Part shown: positions 4,162-64,000 of the stretch, piece after piece
Numbering within the stretch: position 1 is the first letter of the stretch
How the letters are laid out: each line of letters opens with the position of its first letter
Source of the DNA: an uncultured Prevotellaceae bacterium
GTDB taxonomy: Bacteria > Bacteroidota > Bacteroidia > Bacteroidales > Bacteroidaceae
NCBI GenBank assembly: GCA_900319225.1
Contig: ONNV01000007.1
Span: forward strand, 112,888 to 176,887
Length of the DNA: 64,000 bases
Direction of reading: 5' to 3'
The notes under the pieces: model-generated
Databases searched by the model: none
The model's input: the letters and a program-made list of their open reading frames with translations, nothing else
Told to the model about the DNA's origin: nothing
Translations under genes and position numbers: made by a program

Positions 4162-4416
4162 ATGGCAAACCACAAATCAGCCTTGAAGGCTATCAGAAAG
4201 AGCGAGAAGAGAAGACTTCACAACCGTTATTATGCAAAGACCATGCGTAATGCAGTTCGTCAGCTTCGCGCTATGACCAACAAGGAGGAGGCAGTAGCAA
4301 CCTATCCCAAGGTTCAGAAGATGCTTGACAAGCTGGCCAAGACCAATCTTATCCACAAGAACAAGGCCGCTAACCTCAAGTCAAAGCTCTGCGCTCACAT
4401 CGCTAAGCTCGCGTAA
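4162..4416 (+). CDS. rpsT: 30S ribosomal protein S20
   Basis: Basic protein of 84 residues, rich in K, R and A, starting [19 protein letters not shown]20 is a primary binding protein of the 16S rRNA body. Length and composition match the family. An AT-rich leader with no Shine-Dalgarno precedes the ATG, as is normal for ribosomal genes in this phylum. It follows tRNA-Glu without a visible terminator. Its TAA is followed immediately by a 31-base inverted repeat of the GGGACAGTCCC family whose loop contains a terminator hairpin. Confidence 0.97.
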
Positions 4417-4524
4417 CACATTAGGGACAGTCCCCTTTGTGTGCATTGGTCAAAAAAATAGGTTGGTTCTCACGAACCAACCTTTAATTTTTTAATGCAC
4501 ACAAAGGGGACTGTCCCTAATGTG
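4417..4524. repeat. GGGACAGTCCC-family inverted repeat, copy A
   Basis: Perfect 31-base inverted repeat: left arm 4417-4447, right arm 4494-4524. Each arm carries the core AGGGACAGTCCCC. The left arm starts on the first base after the rpsT stop codon. The 46-base loop holds a terminator-like hairpin. Related copies, with the same core but different outer and inner arm sequence, lie at 34330-34458, 38364-38436 and 40859-40925. Confidence 0.9.
4452..4493 (+). terminator. rpsT terminator nested in the repeat
   Basis: Hairpin GGTTGGTT (4461-4468) / AACCAACC (4475-4482) with a 6-base loop. An A run lies before it and TTTAATTTTTT after it. The A/T symmetry means it could end transcription in either direction. 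Confidence 0.75.
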
Positions 4525-4532
4525 CCACCGAA

Positions 4533-4552
4533 AAATACCATCGCACCTGCGT
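4533..4552 (-). repeat. Dispersed 20-base repeat (ACGCAGGTGCG type)
   Basis: On the minus strand this reads ACGCAGGTGCGATGGTATTT. Near-identical copies on the plus strand lie at 11686-11705 and 11729-11748, downstream of gyrB. Confidence 0.6.
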
Positions 4553-4580
4553 TTTCCCGTGCGTGATCCTAACCTGCACG

Positions 4581-4728
4581 AGGTTTCCAGATGCACCCAG
4601 TAAAACGGAACCCCGACAGCAAAGCGTTGTCGGGGTTTCGTTTTACCCGGCCTGGAAGGCCGGCAGAGTGGAATGGAACGTAGTGGAATGAAACGGGTTT
4701 GGGGCGTCGCCGCCCCAAACTAAAAAAA
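4581..4728 (+). repeat. Variable-stem hairpin element, copy 1
   Basis: Begins AGGTTTCCAG. Hairpin A: arms 4600-4618 and 4628-4646 (19 bases, one G-T wobble), stem sequence built on CCCCGACA, loop GCAAAGCGT. Hairpin B: CCGGCC-tgga-aGGCCGG, 4647-4663. Then GCAGAGTGGAATGG, and hairpin C: GTTTGGGGCG-tcgc-CGCCCCAAAC, 4697-4720, followed by TAAAAAAA. Copies 2 and 3 keep the plan but have entirely different hairpin A stems. Confidence 0.85.
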
Positions 4729-4738
4729 GGTAAAATGC

Positions 4739-4887
4739 AGGTTTCCAGCTGCAGTCAGTAAAAATGAATCCAAACAGCAAAGCGTTGTTTGGATTCATTT
4801 TTACCCGGCCTGGAAGGCCGGCAGAGTGGAGCGGGATATATCCCGCGGAACGGGTTTGGGGGCGTCGCCGCCCCCAAACTAAAAAAA
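4739..4887 (+). repeat. Variable-stem hairpin element, copy 2
   Basis: Tandem neighbour of copy 1. Hairpin A: arms 4758-4776 and 4786-4804, perfect 19-base pairing, stem built on ATCCAAACA, with the same loop GCAAAGCGT as copy 1. Hairpin B is identical to copy 1. A short palindrome, GCGGGATATATCCCGC (about 4831-4846), replaces the GGAATGG segment. Hairpin C (4854-4879) has one extra G and a matching extra C, a compensated change against copy 1. Confidence 0.85.
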
Positions 4888-4910
4888 TGTCGTGTATCTA
4901 ATACGTAGAT

Positions 4911-4989
4911 AGGTTTCCAGCCTGACGCTTAAGGCCTTCAGGCCGTAAAGCGAAAACCACCGAGCGTAGTGAAGCAGCGAGAACCCGCC
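4911..4989. repeat. Third, divergent repeat unit next to the CoA ligase stop
   Basis: Starts with AGGTTTCCAG like the two preceding units, then a hairpin CGCTT-aa-GGCC-ttca-GGCC-gt-aAAGCG (about 4926-4952). It ends with a 19-mer at 4971-4989 whose reverse complement, GGCGGGTTCTCGCTGCTTC, recurs with one change after the transporter stop at 63448-63466. Both copies have the same orientation relative to the stop codon they follow. Confidence 0.6.
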
Positions 4990-5002
4990 GCAAGGCCAAA
5001 AC

Positions 5003-6670
5003 CTACTTCTTAGCCTCAGCGTCCTTATTACGAATCTCCACGCGTTTGATCTTACCGCTGATAGTCTTAGGCAACTCCTCCACGAACTCCACCACACGCG
5101 GATACTTATAAGGAGCCGAAACCTTCTTGACATGATCCTGGATCTCCTTGATAAGAGCCTCCTTATCGGGATAATCCTTATACTCCTTAGCCAGAATGAT
5201 GGTAGCCTTGACTACCTGACCGCGAACCTCATCAGGGACGCCGGTAACGGCGCACTCCACAACTGCGGGGTGTGTCATCAGGGCGCTCTCAACCTCGAAC
5301 GGTCCTATGCGGTAACCGGAGCTCTTGATAACGTCATCAGTGCGGCCTACGAACCAGTAGTAACCGTCACCGTCACGCCATGCAACATCGCCGGTATGGT
5401 AGATTCCGTTGTTGTGTACGGTCTTGGTGAGTTCGGGATTGTGGTAATACTCCTCAAACAGACCAAGCGGCAGGCGCTTATCGGTATGCAGGATTATCTC
5501 ACCGCTCTCACCGTCCTCGGCGGAACGGCCGTCATTGGTGAGCAGGTCCATGTCATATGCGGGGTTGGGCACACCCAGTGAACCGGGTTTGGGAGTCATC
5601 CAGGGGAATGTGCCGATGGTCATGGCAGTCTCGGTCTGGCCGAATCCCTCATGGATATCCAGGCCTGTATGCTCTTTCCAGAACTCAAATACGCTGGGGT
5701 TGAGCGGCTCACCTGCAGTGGTGCAGTACTTGAGTGCGCTCAGGTCATACTGGCTCAGGTCCTCACGAATCAGATAACGGTAGATTGTGGGGGGAGCGCA
5801 GAATGATGTAACGCGGTACTTGGCCATTGCAGCCAGTATGTTGGCGGGAGTGAACTTCTCGTGGTCATAAACGAACACTGCTGCACCTGACAGCCACTGT
5901 CCGTAGAGCTTGCCCCATACGGCCTTGCCCCAACCGGTATCGGCTACGGTAAGATGCAGGCTCTGCTCATTTACGTTGTGCCAGTACTTGGCGGTAACGA
6001 TATGTCCCAGAGGATAGAGAAAATTGTGTGCCACCATCTTGGGGTTACCGCTTGAACCGGAAGTGAAGTATAGCAGTGATATGTCATGATTGTCATTTAC
6101 ATGCTCGGGGCGATGGAACTCAGGTGCGTTTTTCATACCCTCATCCATGCTGTACCACCCGTCCTTGTTGTATGAACCGGTGGCAACGCGGATCTTTACC
6201 GACGGAGCATCCTTGAGACAGTCATTCACATGCTGTATCATGATGGGCTCATCGGCACTTACAATCATCTTGATCTGGGCTGAGTTGGCGCGGTAGATGA
6301 GGTCCTTGGGGGTGAGCAGGTGGGTTGCGGGGATTGCCACGGCACCCAGCTTGTGCAGAGCCACGATTGAGAACCAGAACTCGGCGCGGCGCTTGAGCAT
6401 CATCATGACGCAGTCACCCTTGCCAATACCCAGTGACTGGTAGAATGCGGCCACCTGGTCTGATTTGCGCTTTATGTCGGCAAATGTATAACGGACCTCG
6501 GCGCCCTCGTCATTGGTCCACAGAAGGGCAAGCTTGTCGGGGTTGGTACGGGCCCACTCATCGACTACGTCGTAGCCGAAATTGAAGTTGTCCGGTACTA
6601 TTATCTCAAAATTCTTCTGGAAATCCTCCAGTGAGTCAAAATTGACTTTCTTCAGGTATTTCTCTAACAT
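5003..6670 (-). CDS. AMP-forming acyl-CoA synthetase (medium-chain / ACSM-like)
   Basis: Adenylate-forming enzyme of 555 residues: activates a carboxylic acid with ATP to the acyl-AMP and then transfers it to CoA. The P-loop-like motif YFTSGSSGNPK is at 201-211, GFGQTETAMT near 345, the YHTGDVAWRD hinge region near 425, and the C-terminal catalytic lysine is in KTISGKIKR near 539. Substrate cannot be read from sequence; the family contains medium-chain and aryl acid ligases. It is the last gene of an operon in which two ligases alternate with two XRE-cupin regulators, 5 bases after the regulator at 6676. The gene ends at repeat unit 4911-4989. Confidence 0.88.
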   Translation of the reverse strand: MLEKYLKKVNFDSLEDFQKNFEIIVPDNFNFGYDVVDEWARTNPDKLALLWTNDEGAEVRYTFADIKRKSDQVAAFYQSLGIGKGDCVMMMLKRRAEFWFSIVALHKLGAVAIPATHLLTPKDLIYRANSAQIKMIVSADEPIMIQHVNDCLKDAPSVKIRVATGSYNKDGWYSMDEGMKNAPEFHRPEHVNDNHDISLLYFTSGSSGNPKMVAHNFLYPLGHIVTAKYWHNVNEQSLHLTVADTGWGKAVWGKLYGQWLSGAAVFVYDHEKFTPANILAAMAKYRVTSFCAPPTIYRYLIREDLSQYDLSALKYCTTAGEPLNPSVFEFWKEHTGLDIHEGFGQTETAMTIGTFPWMTPKPGSLGVPNPAYDMDLLTNDGRSAEDGESGEIILHTDKRLPLGLFEEYYHNPELTKTVHNNGIYHTGDVAWRDGDGYYWFVGRTDDVIKSSGYRIGPFEVESALMTHPAVVECAVTGVPDEVRGQVVKATIILAKEYKDYPDKEALIKEIQDHVKKVSAPYKYPRVVEFVEELPKTISGKIKRVEIRNKDAEAKK

Positions 6671-63434: not shown

Positions 63435-63447
63435 TAGTGAAGCCTCC

Positions 63448-63466
63448 GGCGGGCTCTCGCTGCTTC
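63448..63466 (+). repeat. Post-stop 19-mer shared with the CoA ligase 3' end
   Basis: GGCGGGCTCTCGCTGCTTC; the same sequence with one change follows the CoA ligase gene at 4971-4989 on the minus strand. Both stand shortly after a stop codon, in the sense direction. Confidence 0.6.
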
Positions 63467-63485
63467 GCGGCTCTCGTTTTTTTTT

Positions 63486-63605
63486 GTTTACGTATCCGTA
63501 AACATCCAGCCAATAAATTGGCTGGCTACCATTATCCAATGCCTACGGCATTAGTTGTGCCGTTAGGCACATAATAGGGGTAGCCAGCCGTTTCAACGGC
63601 TGGAT
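63486..63605. repeat. Palindrome cluster with two alternative foldings
   Basis: Four local hairpins: GTTTACG/CGTAAAC (63486-63503); CCAGCCAAT-aa-ATTGGCTGG (63506-63525); GCCTA-CGGCA/TGCCG-TAGGC (63541-63568); CCAGCCGTT-tc-AACGGCTGG (63584-63603). The second and fourth are related, so GGCTGGCTACC (63520-63530) can also pair with GGTAGCCAGCC (63579-63589), and ATCCAGCC (63504) with GGCTGGAT (63598), closing a larger structure. Confidence 0.75.
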
Positions 63606-63678
63606 CTTTCCAAATATAAATACGTTTCCTTGTGCGTGTGCCTAATTCGCACAAGGTTTCCACCTGCACACACCAACA

Positions 63679-63900
63679 AGGTTTCCAGTTGCAGTTCAGT
63701 AAAACAATACCCTCGCGAGCGAAGCTAGCGAGGGTATTGTTTTACCCGGCCTGGAAGGCCGGCAGAGTGGAATGGAACGAAGTGGAATTTTTACATTAAG
63801 CCAAACGAATAAAGGAAACTTGTTTACTTTATCGTGGCGTGTAAAAATGGGCTAAGCCAATGAAACGGGTTTGGGGCGTCGCCGCCCCAAACTAAAAAAA
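63679..63900 (+). repeat. Variable-stem hairpin element, copy 3, with insertion
   Basis: Starts AGGTTTCCAG. Hairpin A: arms 63699-63716 and 63728-63745, perfect 18-base pairing, stem built on ATACCCTCGC, loop GAGCGAAGCTA. Hairpin B is identical to copies 1 and 2. After GTGGAAT there is a 73-base insertion (63789-63861) absent from copy 1. Hairpin C follows at 63869-63892, then TAAAAAAA. Confidence 0.85.
63789..63861. mobile_element. 73-base palindromic insertion in copy 3
   Basis: Comparison with copy 1 (GTGGAATGAAACGGG) shows an insert flanked by AAT on both sides. It has TTTTTACA/TGTAAAAA near its ends (63788-63795, 63840-63847) and an inner hairpin ATAAAGGAAAC-tt-GTTTACTTTAT (63809-63832). 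It could be a miniature mobile palindrome, or alternatively copy 1 could have lost it. Confidence 0.5.
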
Positions 63901-64000
63901 TGTTGTTCCTAATACGCAGACTAACCCATCTGGAAGATGGGTGTTTCCGAAGGAAACTAAAATGAGGTCAAGGAATGTCTTGACATTCCAGCTAGCGACT

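Follow-up and report, generated by a model that had tools for sequence, protein, structure and literature searches.

A modular intergenic repeat in an uncultured Prevotellaceae bacterium carries a hairpin whose stem varies while its arms stay matched

How long hairpin stems keep their pairing as their sequence evolves has long been asked, and the question is raised here by a repeat whose copies carry different, still complementary stems between constant parts. The window, the whole stretch of 64,000 nucleotides that we analysed, corresponds to bases 112888-176887 of one contig of a draft genome (2.53 Mb, 17 contigs). Two repeat copies lie in tandem at 4581-4728 and 4739-4886, with a period of 158 nt, downstream of the ORF at 4162-4416, which from its reading frame we take to be rpsT. 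The third, at 63679-63900, belongs to a long form that spans ~63446-64000 and is truncated at the contig end. An initial annotation, made from the letters of the window, had described three copies with shared constant parts, and we confirmed this: with up to three mismatches permitted, CCGGCCTGGAAGGCCGGCAGAGTGGA occurs three times in the window, always exactly, compared with 0.00 expected in shuffles. The loops are of the GC(A/G)AAGC type, as described there, and the stems of hairpin A differ yet pair, with 19 of 19 positions complementary in copy 2, 95% over 19 in copy 1 (one G.T), and 95% over a 22-nt pair in copy 3. The extra compensated pair reported for hairpin C is also present, as a G-C pair in copy 2. 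The parts of the three copies are listed here by window position.

4535-4580, + strand: 5´ linker module of copy 1 (ATACCATCGCACCTGCG...GTGCGTGATCCTAACCTGCACG); a like module precedes many genome copies
4581-4728, + strand: core of repeat copy 1
4600-4646, + strand: hairpin A of copy 1, with basal GTAAAA/TTTTAC, inner stem CGGAACCCCGACA and tip GCAAAGC
4647-4663, + strand: hairpin B1 of copy 1, CCGGCC-TGGAA-GGCCGG, almost invariant among aligned copies
4697-4720, + strand: hairpin C of copy 1, GTTTGGGGCG-TCGC-CGCCCCAAAC, then TAAAAAAA, without a T run
4739-4886, + strand: core of repeat copy 2, in tandem with copy 1
4758-4804, + strand: hairpin A of copy 2, inner stem ATGAATCCAAACA
4831-4846, + strand: hairpin B2 of copy 2, GCGGGATATATCCCGC; copy 1 has a TGGAA-rich stretch at that place
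4854-4879, + strand: hairpin C of copy 2, longer by one G-C pair
4888-4995, + strand: 3´ module with TTTCCAG linker, hairpin D (CGCTTAAGGCC..GGCCGTAAAGCG), hairpin E (CGAGC..GCGAG) and end CCCGCCGCAAGG; similar modules occur at other copies
63446-63476, + strand: 5´ end of the long form of copy 3, an inverted 3´ end module (CCGGCGGGCTCTCGC-TGCTTCGCGG-CTCTCG), similar in L005, L010, L020 and L022
63506-63603, + strand: 5´ branched palindrome of copy 3, CCAGCC..GGCTGGCTACC...GGTAGCCAGCC..GGCTGG
63679-63900, + strand: core of copy 3, including a nested insertion
63699-63745, + strand: hairpin A of copy 3, inner stem on CAATACCCTCGC, tip GCGAAGC
63789-63859, + strand: nested insertion of ~71 nt in slot B2 of copy 3, with its own inverted ends TTTTTAC..GTAAAAA
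63869-63892, + strand: hairpin C of copy 3
63900-64000, + strand: 3´ module of copy 3, truncated by the contig end and carrying an alternative hairpin insert (AACCCATCTGGAAGATGGGT...)

The same architecture extends beyond the window. Constant linkers (TTTCCAG..., TTTTACCCGGCC..., TAATACGCAGATA...) stand between hairpin slots, and some forty copies of the repeat are present in the same genome. The earlier proposal of a modular repeat is supported. On their 5´ side, long forms carry, in order, an inverted 3´-end module, the branched palindrome and TTTCCAG linkers, then hairpin A, which is followed by hairpin B1, slot B2 and hairpin C. Slot B2 holds either a TGGAA-rich stretch or a hairpin (arms, for example, GCGGGAC, GCGGTAT or GCGACAT), at times with a nested insertion of ~71 nt; inserts similar to that of copy 3 are found in L026, L036, L043, L108 and L171. 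Downstream of hairpin C come a linker (TAATACGCAGATA or TAATACAATAATACG), TTTCCAG, hairpins D and E, and an end such as CCCGCCGGATGG. Unrelated hairpins (GTAAAAATTAAGGCGCC..GGCGCCATAATTTTTAC or AAAAAAAGGTGACCC..GGGCCACCTTTTTTTGA) may occupy slot A in other species, where slot C may also have the alternative GTTTCC-AGAA-GGAAAC. Parts at one end or the other are missing in many copies. A MITE with fixed ends seems unlikely, because the ends vary between copies: long forms have inverted end modules, but many copies are without one or both. Two further observations concern length variation. A second nested insert of ~70 nt (TTCGACCTTTTCTCGCCACGACAGAGTG...) lies within the element in L184 and L205 and is absent from the near-identical ortholog L190, and in L050 (reverse strand, ~924-961) the inner part of hairpin A is gone, leaving GTAAAAC joined to TTTTAC, as expected of replication slippage across the hairpin.

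The family is far larger than the three copies in the window, and its hairpins A are diverse. A blastn search of the same genome with copy 1 gave 49 matching pieces, with 40 of 55 candidates scored, and the 41 extracted copies with a readable hairpin A contained 28 distinct hairpins. Over 11 genomes we collected 120 hairpins A, 93 of them distinct and 66 with a copy at the orthologous site in another species, so stem A is not constant elsewhere. This set was reduced from 128 to 123 by removal of four false matches (in L150, L177, L189 and L049) and of L050, where the inner hairpin is deleted, and then to 120 by removal of three further false matches. Matches by blastn were obtained in 14 of 61 genomes, all within the genus (37 genomes) and a few of them weak; none of the 24 genomes outside the genus matched. 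A covariance model that left stem A paired but variable, close to the check suggested at the outset, was built on an alignment selected for distinct hairpins. It detected the element in 19 of the 37 genus genomes at E 0.01, several weakly, and in a 149-genome sample of the order (E 0.001, stricter filters) its sole match was the window's own genome. From these searches, the repeat family appears confined to one genus. The exact core pattern also matched MAGs titled Bacteroidales or Bacteroidaceae, two of which come from water buffalo and yak reticulum; the host genus is known from ruminant stomachs. A phage or plasmid origin was rejected: window positions 4575-4890 had no match in plasmid and phage records, and viral contigs had no exact match to one 21-base pattern. 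In the open-licence PMC literature we found no description of this repeat. Contig ends fall less than 1 kb from repeat copies at window position 64000 and in contigs C2, C4, C7, C8 and C9 of the same genome, so the repeat probably breaks assemblies in the genus.

For 40 copies in the window's genome, the gene setting was convergent in 24, divergent in none, and between same-strand pairs in 7 + 4, with 5 lacking a downstream ORF; the rule is crude, since it counts ORFs of at least 90 aa and misses rpsT (84 aa), so that the two window copies there were scored as non-convergent. Most copies thus seem to lie between convergent genes, where tolerated parasites would be expected. The rpsT gene is present in 37 of 37 genus genomes, and the 30 loci that we judged by eye comprised 7 occupied, 19 empty and 4 undecided sites (L228, L248 and L250 are truncated by contig ends, and L247 was not read in the gene's frame). 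Presence of the element therefore varies among congeners at this one site, where filled and empty loci, compared by eye, display no clear target duplication; the window's genome has the two tandem copies and a different downstream gene. The same locus holds another palindrome. At 4417-4525 the inverted arms CACATTAGGGACAGTCCCCTTTGTGTGC / GCACACAAAGGGGACTGTCCCTAATGTG enclose a terminator-like hairpin downstream of rpsT, and several congeners have, at the same place, other arm sequences (CGCATTAGGGTCTGACCCC..., CACAATAGGGACGGTTCC..., CAGTACCACTGGGGACGGTTCC...) that are still paired. These arms are a second palindrome family with changing, matching arms.

In slot A the base of the hairpin does not vary and the tip hardly does, while the inner stem is highly variable and its pairs covary. 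The GTAAAA...TTTTAC sequences, previously read as constant ends, are indeed unvarying (0.00 bits/site in the 40 main-length-class copies of the window's genome), but they form the six basal pairs of the stem itself. Among the same 40 copies, undeduplicated, the inner arms have an entropy of 1.08 bits/site, CCGGCC of hairpin B1 has 0.06, and the 17 bases upstream of hairpin A have 0.81, with a one-base indel left unaligned. We calculated these values without deduplication because our covariation alignment, A1, is biased for the contrast of hairpin A with the rest: its rows were selected for distinct hairpins A, a GTAAAA base and one type of hairpin C (GTTTGGGG). A1 contains 47 of 48 proposed rows, L057 having been omitted as a near copy of L055. 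The tips (n=120) are GCAAAGC in 63, GCGAAGC in 32, GCGTAGC in 5 and others in 20; GCGAAGC is an extraordinarily stable DNA mini-hairpin. Pairing was tested on 79 distinct main-class hairpins of 44-48 nt, excluding the GGCGCC and GGTGACC types. In these, Watson-Crick pairs make up 808 of the 862 inner cells, with 27 cells of the G.T type, 15 of the A.C type and 12 other, and 30 of the 79 hairpins are perfect. Hairpins of length 47 (n=51) have Watson-Crick pairs in 528 of 561 inner cells, compared with 326 ± 12 after the arms were re-dealt. Both-sided changes occur at 12 of 12 inner pairs of A1, with the observed values reached by 0 of 500 shuffles, and the covariation score is 0.240 compared with at most 0.048 when partners were slid.

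These stems change in both ways, by single-pair steps and by abrupt rewriting. A minimum spanning tree of the 71 distinct 17-bp stems has 70 links, of which 41 are one-pair changes, 18 two, 2 three and 9 four. The three stems in the window are fully changed, as first reported, but this does not hold for the family, where single-pair steps are common. With such intermediates in existence, the three window stems are far points of a network, and because one-pair intermediates are abundant, the argument that stepwise mutation would hardly replace whole stems finds no support in that form. Stem pairs that differ by exactly one base pair fall into changes of one arm to or from G.T (17, the largest class), double transitions (12), double transversions (9), changes to A.C (7) and others (4). 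On links of 1-2 pairs, one-arm changes were to or from G.T 14 times, A.C 6 times and other mismatches 11 times, and the 40 paired Watson-Crick changes were 20 transitions and 20 transversions. Linker changes, from 27 A1 haplotypes, comprised 15 transitions and 18 transversions, a similar proportion (Fisher p 0.81); the counts are not independent events. A route through G-U would favor transitions and so does not fit paired changes of which half are transversions, as in the linkers. Inner and outer stem blocks also recur in differing combinations: CTAAG+CCCCGACA, CGGAA+CCCCGACA and CTAAG+GCCTCGC are all found within one genome.

Where copies from different species occupy orthologous sites, their surroundings may be alike although the hairpin in slot A has been altered or replaced outright. 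In 78 cross-species copy pairs with matching DNA on both sides, hairpin identity and flank identity had a Spearman correlation of 0.16 (p 0.17), and in the 13 pairs, partly non-independent, with flanks of at least 88%, the hairpin was at least 95% identical in 3 and below 70% in 6. The swapping of stem cassettes, one of two processes proposed in the initial annotation, is well illustrated by L179/L192 (flanks 97%), where identity is 0.50 for hairpin A and 1.00 for both B-C and D: hairpin A has been replaced between the edges GTTTCCAG and TTTTACCCGG, with near-identity from TTTTACCCGG on for ~250 bases. A replacement with the same edges is seen in L181/L189, where TTTCCAG stands at the left edge and TTTTACCCGG at the right. 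The best non-orthologous matches of the L179 and L192 hairpins are 0.98 and 0.93 identical, both in other genomes, and neither is proved as a donor. The other proposed process, fold-back copying, is favored by the loop, which is inverted in L038 and not in its ortholog L008 (flanks 85.3%), and likewise in L211 and not in L006 (flanks 80.9%), an inversion that the cited part of one study gives as a mark of template switching (PMC8604942). Smaller changes are found in L003/L077, where three adjacent outer pairs differ (two on both arms, one as G.T versus A-T), the inner 5´ arm is unchanged and there is a small difference 3´ of the tip. Of the changed pairs in orthologs of the same length, 86 are Watson-Crick on both sides, and a mismatch is involved in 31. 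Some ortholog pairs are kept nearly throughout, such as L055/L057 and L183/L196. The closest hairpin was at a non-orthologous copy in 48 of 66 cases, a comparison of the best of many with the best of few. In a matched control, the fraction of draws in which the ortholog was better than a random copy from the same other genome was 0.69 for A, 0.64 for B-C and 0.68 for D, which indicates some weak vertical signal everywhere and exchange that is not special to slot A.

We suggest, with a probability of roughly 0.6, that the element is a genus-restricted, non-coding mosaic repeat of the BOX/BIME kind, with hairpin cassettes exchanged between copies and arms kept matched by template switching and/or selection for structure. 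In this model, dispersed copies would swap cassettes at their shared linkers through homologous recombination or template switching, and, going by the control, other modules would be exchanged too. Since cassettes would move as whole hairpins, both arms would travel together, and we take such exchange to be the main source of the abrupt stem changes. A mutation in one arm would likely be copied onto the other by fold-back (template-switch, quasipalindrome) replication, perhaps aided by a stable GCRAAGC tip. Alternatively, one-arm mutations could be removed by selection for the hairpin, and structure selection, at the DNA or RNA level, may act alongside template switching. Given one assembly per species and contigs that often end at these repeats, part of the sequence joined across a copy could be chimeric. 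A more exotic version, to which we assign little credence, is that an unknown activity recognizes the invariant base and tip and replaces or rewrites both inner arms, making hairpin A a hypervariable self-complementary barcode; copies would then receive different stems while base, tip and neighboring hairpins stay constant.

The strongest case for a different origin can be made for a structured RNA, either a 3´ UTR element or a small RNA, in which the fold is selected and stem A drifts by ordinary compensatory substitutions, mostly of single pairs. The strong covariation in hairpin A, the 41 of 70 single-pair links, the position of copies behind genes and the prevalence of G.T among one-arm changes on short links (14 versus 6 A.C and 11 other) all agree with it. 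G.T-type mismatches also outnumber those of A.C type (27 versus 15), but this excess is not significant (p 0.09), and the transversion half of the paired changes, as in the linkers, speaks against stepwise compensation, as do cassette replacement and loop inversion, which are not stepwise. The presence or absence of the element at the same site in congeners is a further point against this reading, as is the lack of an Rfam family at gathering score. In the window, the Rfam search at gathering threshold found two tRNAs only, and the 20 weak matches in 4400-5050 were all below gathering scores, many of them to long hairpins such as microRNA precursors. On balance we regard the RNA reading as improbable, though deserving of serious consideration. 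An intrinsic terminator remnant would share the G+C-rich hairpins and the location chiefly between convergent genes, yet inspection of the three window copies by eye, on both strands, revealed no T run behind any of the hairpins A, B1 and C, with TAAAAAAA standing after hairpin C. At the rpsT site, moreover, distinct terminator-like hairpins with T runs separate that gene from the element. This origin, one of those that the initial annotation named as able to refute its reading, is scarcely credible. Short-read assembly might also create mosaics, by joining contigs of different copies within the repeat, and six contigs of the window's genome (G000) end less than 1 kb from a core copy, as those broken by repeats do. 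Such joining is very unlikely to explain the data, since hairpin A lies tens of bases from unique gene sequence in orthologs with different stems (L021/L034/L031, L003/L077), the arms within a copy agree (808 of 862 inner cells), the same picture is seen in several species, and the ortholog pairs L055/L057 and L183/L196 are conserved nearly throughout.

The initial annotation had also raised the possibility of a target for a hairpin-acting enzyme. A Y1/HUH transposase, recombinase or reverse transcriptase could write or insert the cassettes, and the constant base and tip with a free inner stem do resemble a structure-recognized substrate. Neither of the two enzyme families searched tracks the element. 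Y1_Tnp was found in 23 of 37 genus genomes and not in G007, G008, G019 and G026, four MAGs of 78-97% completeness (G007 97%), each with 7 to 15 blastn matches. RVT_1 was not found in eight element-rich genomes (G000, G007, G008, G015, G019, G022, G025 and G026), while G021 has two, and a reverse transcriptase or retron was rejected on that ground; these absences cover two families in incomplete MAGs. Transposition through single strands of the IS200/IS605 type is expected to give a replication-strand bias. Of 39 placed copies, 7 were excluded for weak skew and 16 of the remaining 32 were on the G-rich strand, a lack of leading or lagging bias on which lagging-strand transposition was rejected. 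RAYTs, in the part of the literature cited, work on hairpins in other bacteria (PMC6006769), but the window's own genome has its RAYT gene flanked by two copies of a different palindrome. As the sole Y1 transposase found in this genome (L082) sits between its own GGGGACGGTTCTG palindromes and Y1 presence does not follow the element, RAYT was rejected as a mobilizer, and an enzyme of any of these kinds seems to us an unlikely author of the stems. The L082 locus (contig C11, ~94382-94744) is of interest in itself: the RAYT-like Y1 gene lies between 77-nt palindromes (GGGGACGGTTCTRTTTGGCCCC...) at 1020-1099 and 1961-2037, the two copies of which differ by a compensated stem change, A-T versus G-C. 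The GGGACNGTCCC-type palindromes probably derive from this pair of gene and palindrome.

The repeat is well suited to asking how the two arms of a DNA hairpin come to change in concert. The 120 hairpins from 11 genomes amount to replicated comparisons, with compensated single-pair steps, paired transversions for which a G.U intermediate is impossible, cassette swaps whose edges are defined, and loop inversions. The relative contributions of template switching, inter-copy recombination and selection thus become measurable in bacteria.

Several known systems share parts of this behavior. BOX elements of Streptococcus pneumoniae and S. suis are, in the part of the study cited here, modular, stem-loop, non-autonomous interspersed repeats that are enriched between convergent genes, a setting shared with other small repeats, and that insert into one another (PMC3049150). 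Our repeat is likewise modular, stem-loop forming, intergenic, multicopy and non-coding, mostly between convergent genes and with nested insertions; the ORF rule used here is a crude one, and the likeness is one of architecture. Unlike BOX as described in that part (PMC3049150), it combines an invariant base and tip with a hypervariable stem whose pairs covary, and its cassettes are replaced at orthologous sites. With REP/BIME/REPIN sequences it shares, going by the cited portions of two reports, numerous intergenic palindromes, subfamilies with alternative complementary stem residues, and mosaics (PMC6006769, PMC3733652). It differs from REP/BIME in being a long multi-hairpin unit, from GTAG/GTGG-type REPs in the GTAA foot of hairpin A (GTAAAA base in 40 main-class copies of the window's genome), and from RAYT-associated REP/BIME in that no Y1_Tnp was found in the element-rich G007, G008, G019 and G026. 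MITEs are small, non-coding and foldable (PMC3049150). The repeat resembles them in these respects, and its long forms have inverted-repeat-like ends, but unlike MITEs its ends differ among copies and no target duplication was recognized at the rpsT site. For template switching in inverted repeats, the cited parts of two studies give homogenization of the arms and inversion of the spacer as the signature (PMC8604942; PMC8794818). Arm homogenization, multi-base compensated changes and loop inversion are features that the repeat has in common with such quasipalindrome mutation (PMC8794818, PMC8604942). The published cases, to the extent that these sources are cited here, are RNA genes and yeast coding DNA (PMC8794818, PMC8604942), unlike the dispersed bacterial repeat described here, in which template switching seems to be supplemented by the exchange of cassettes among copies.
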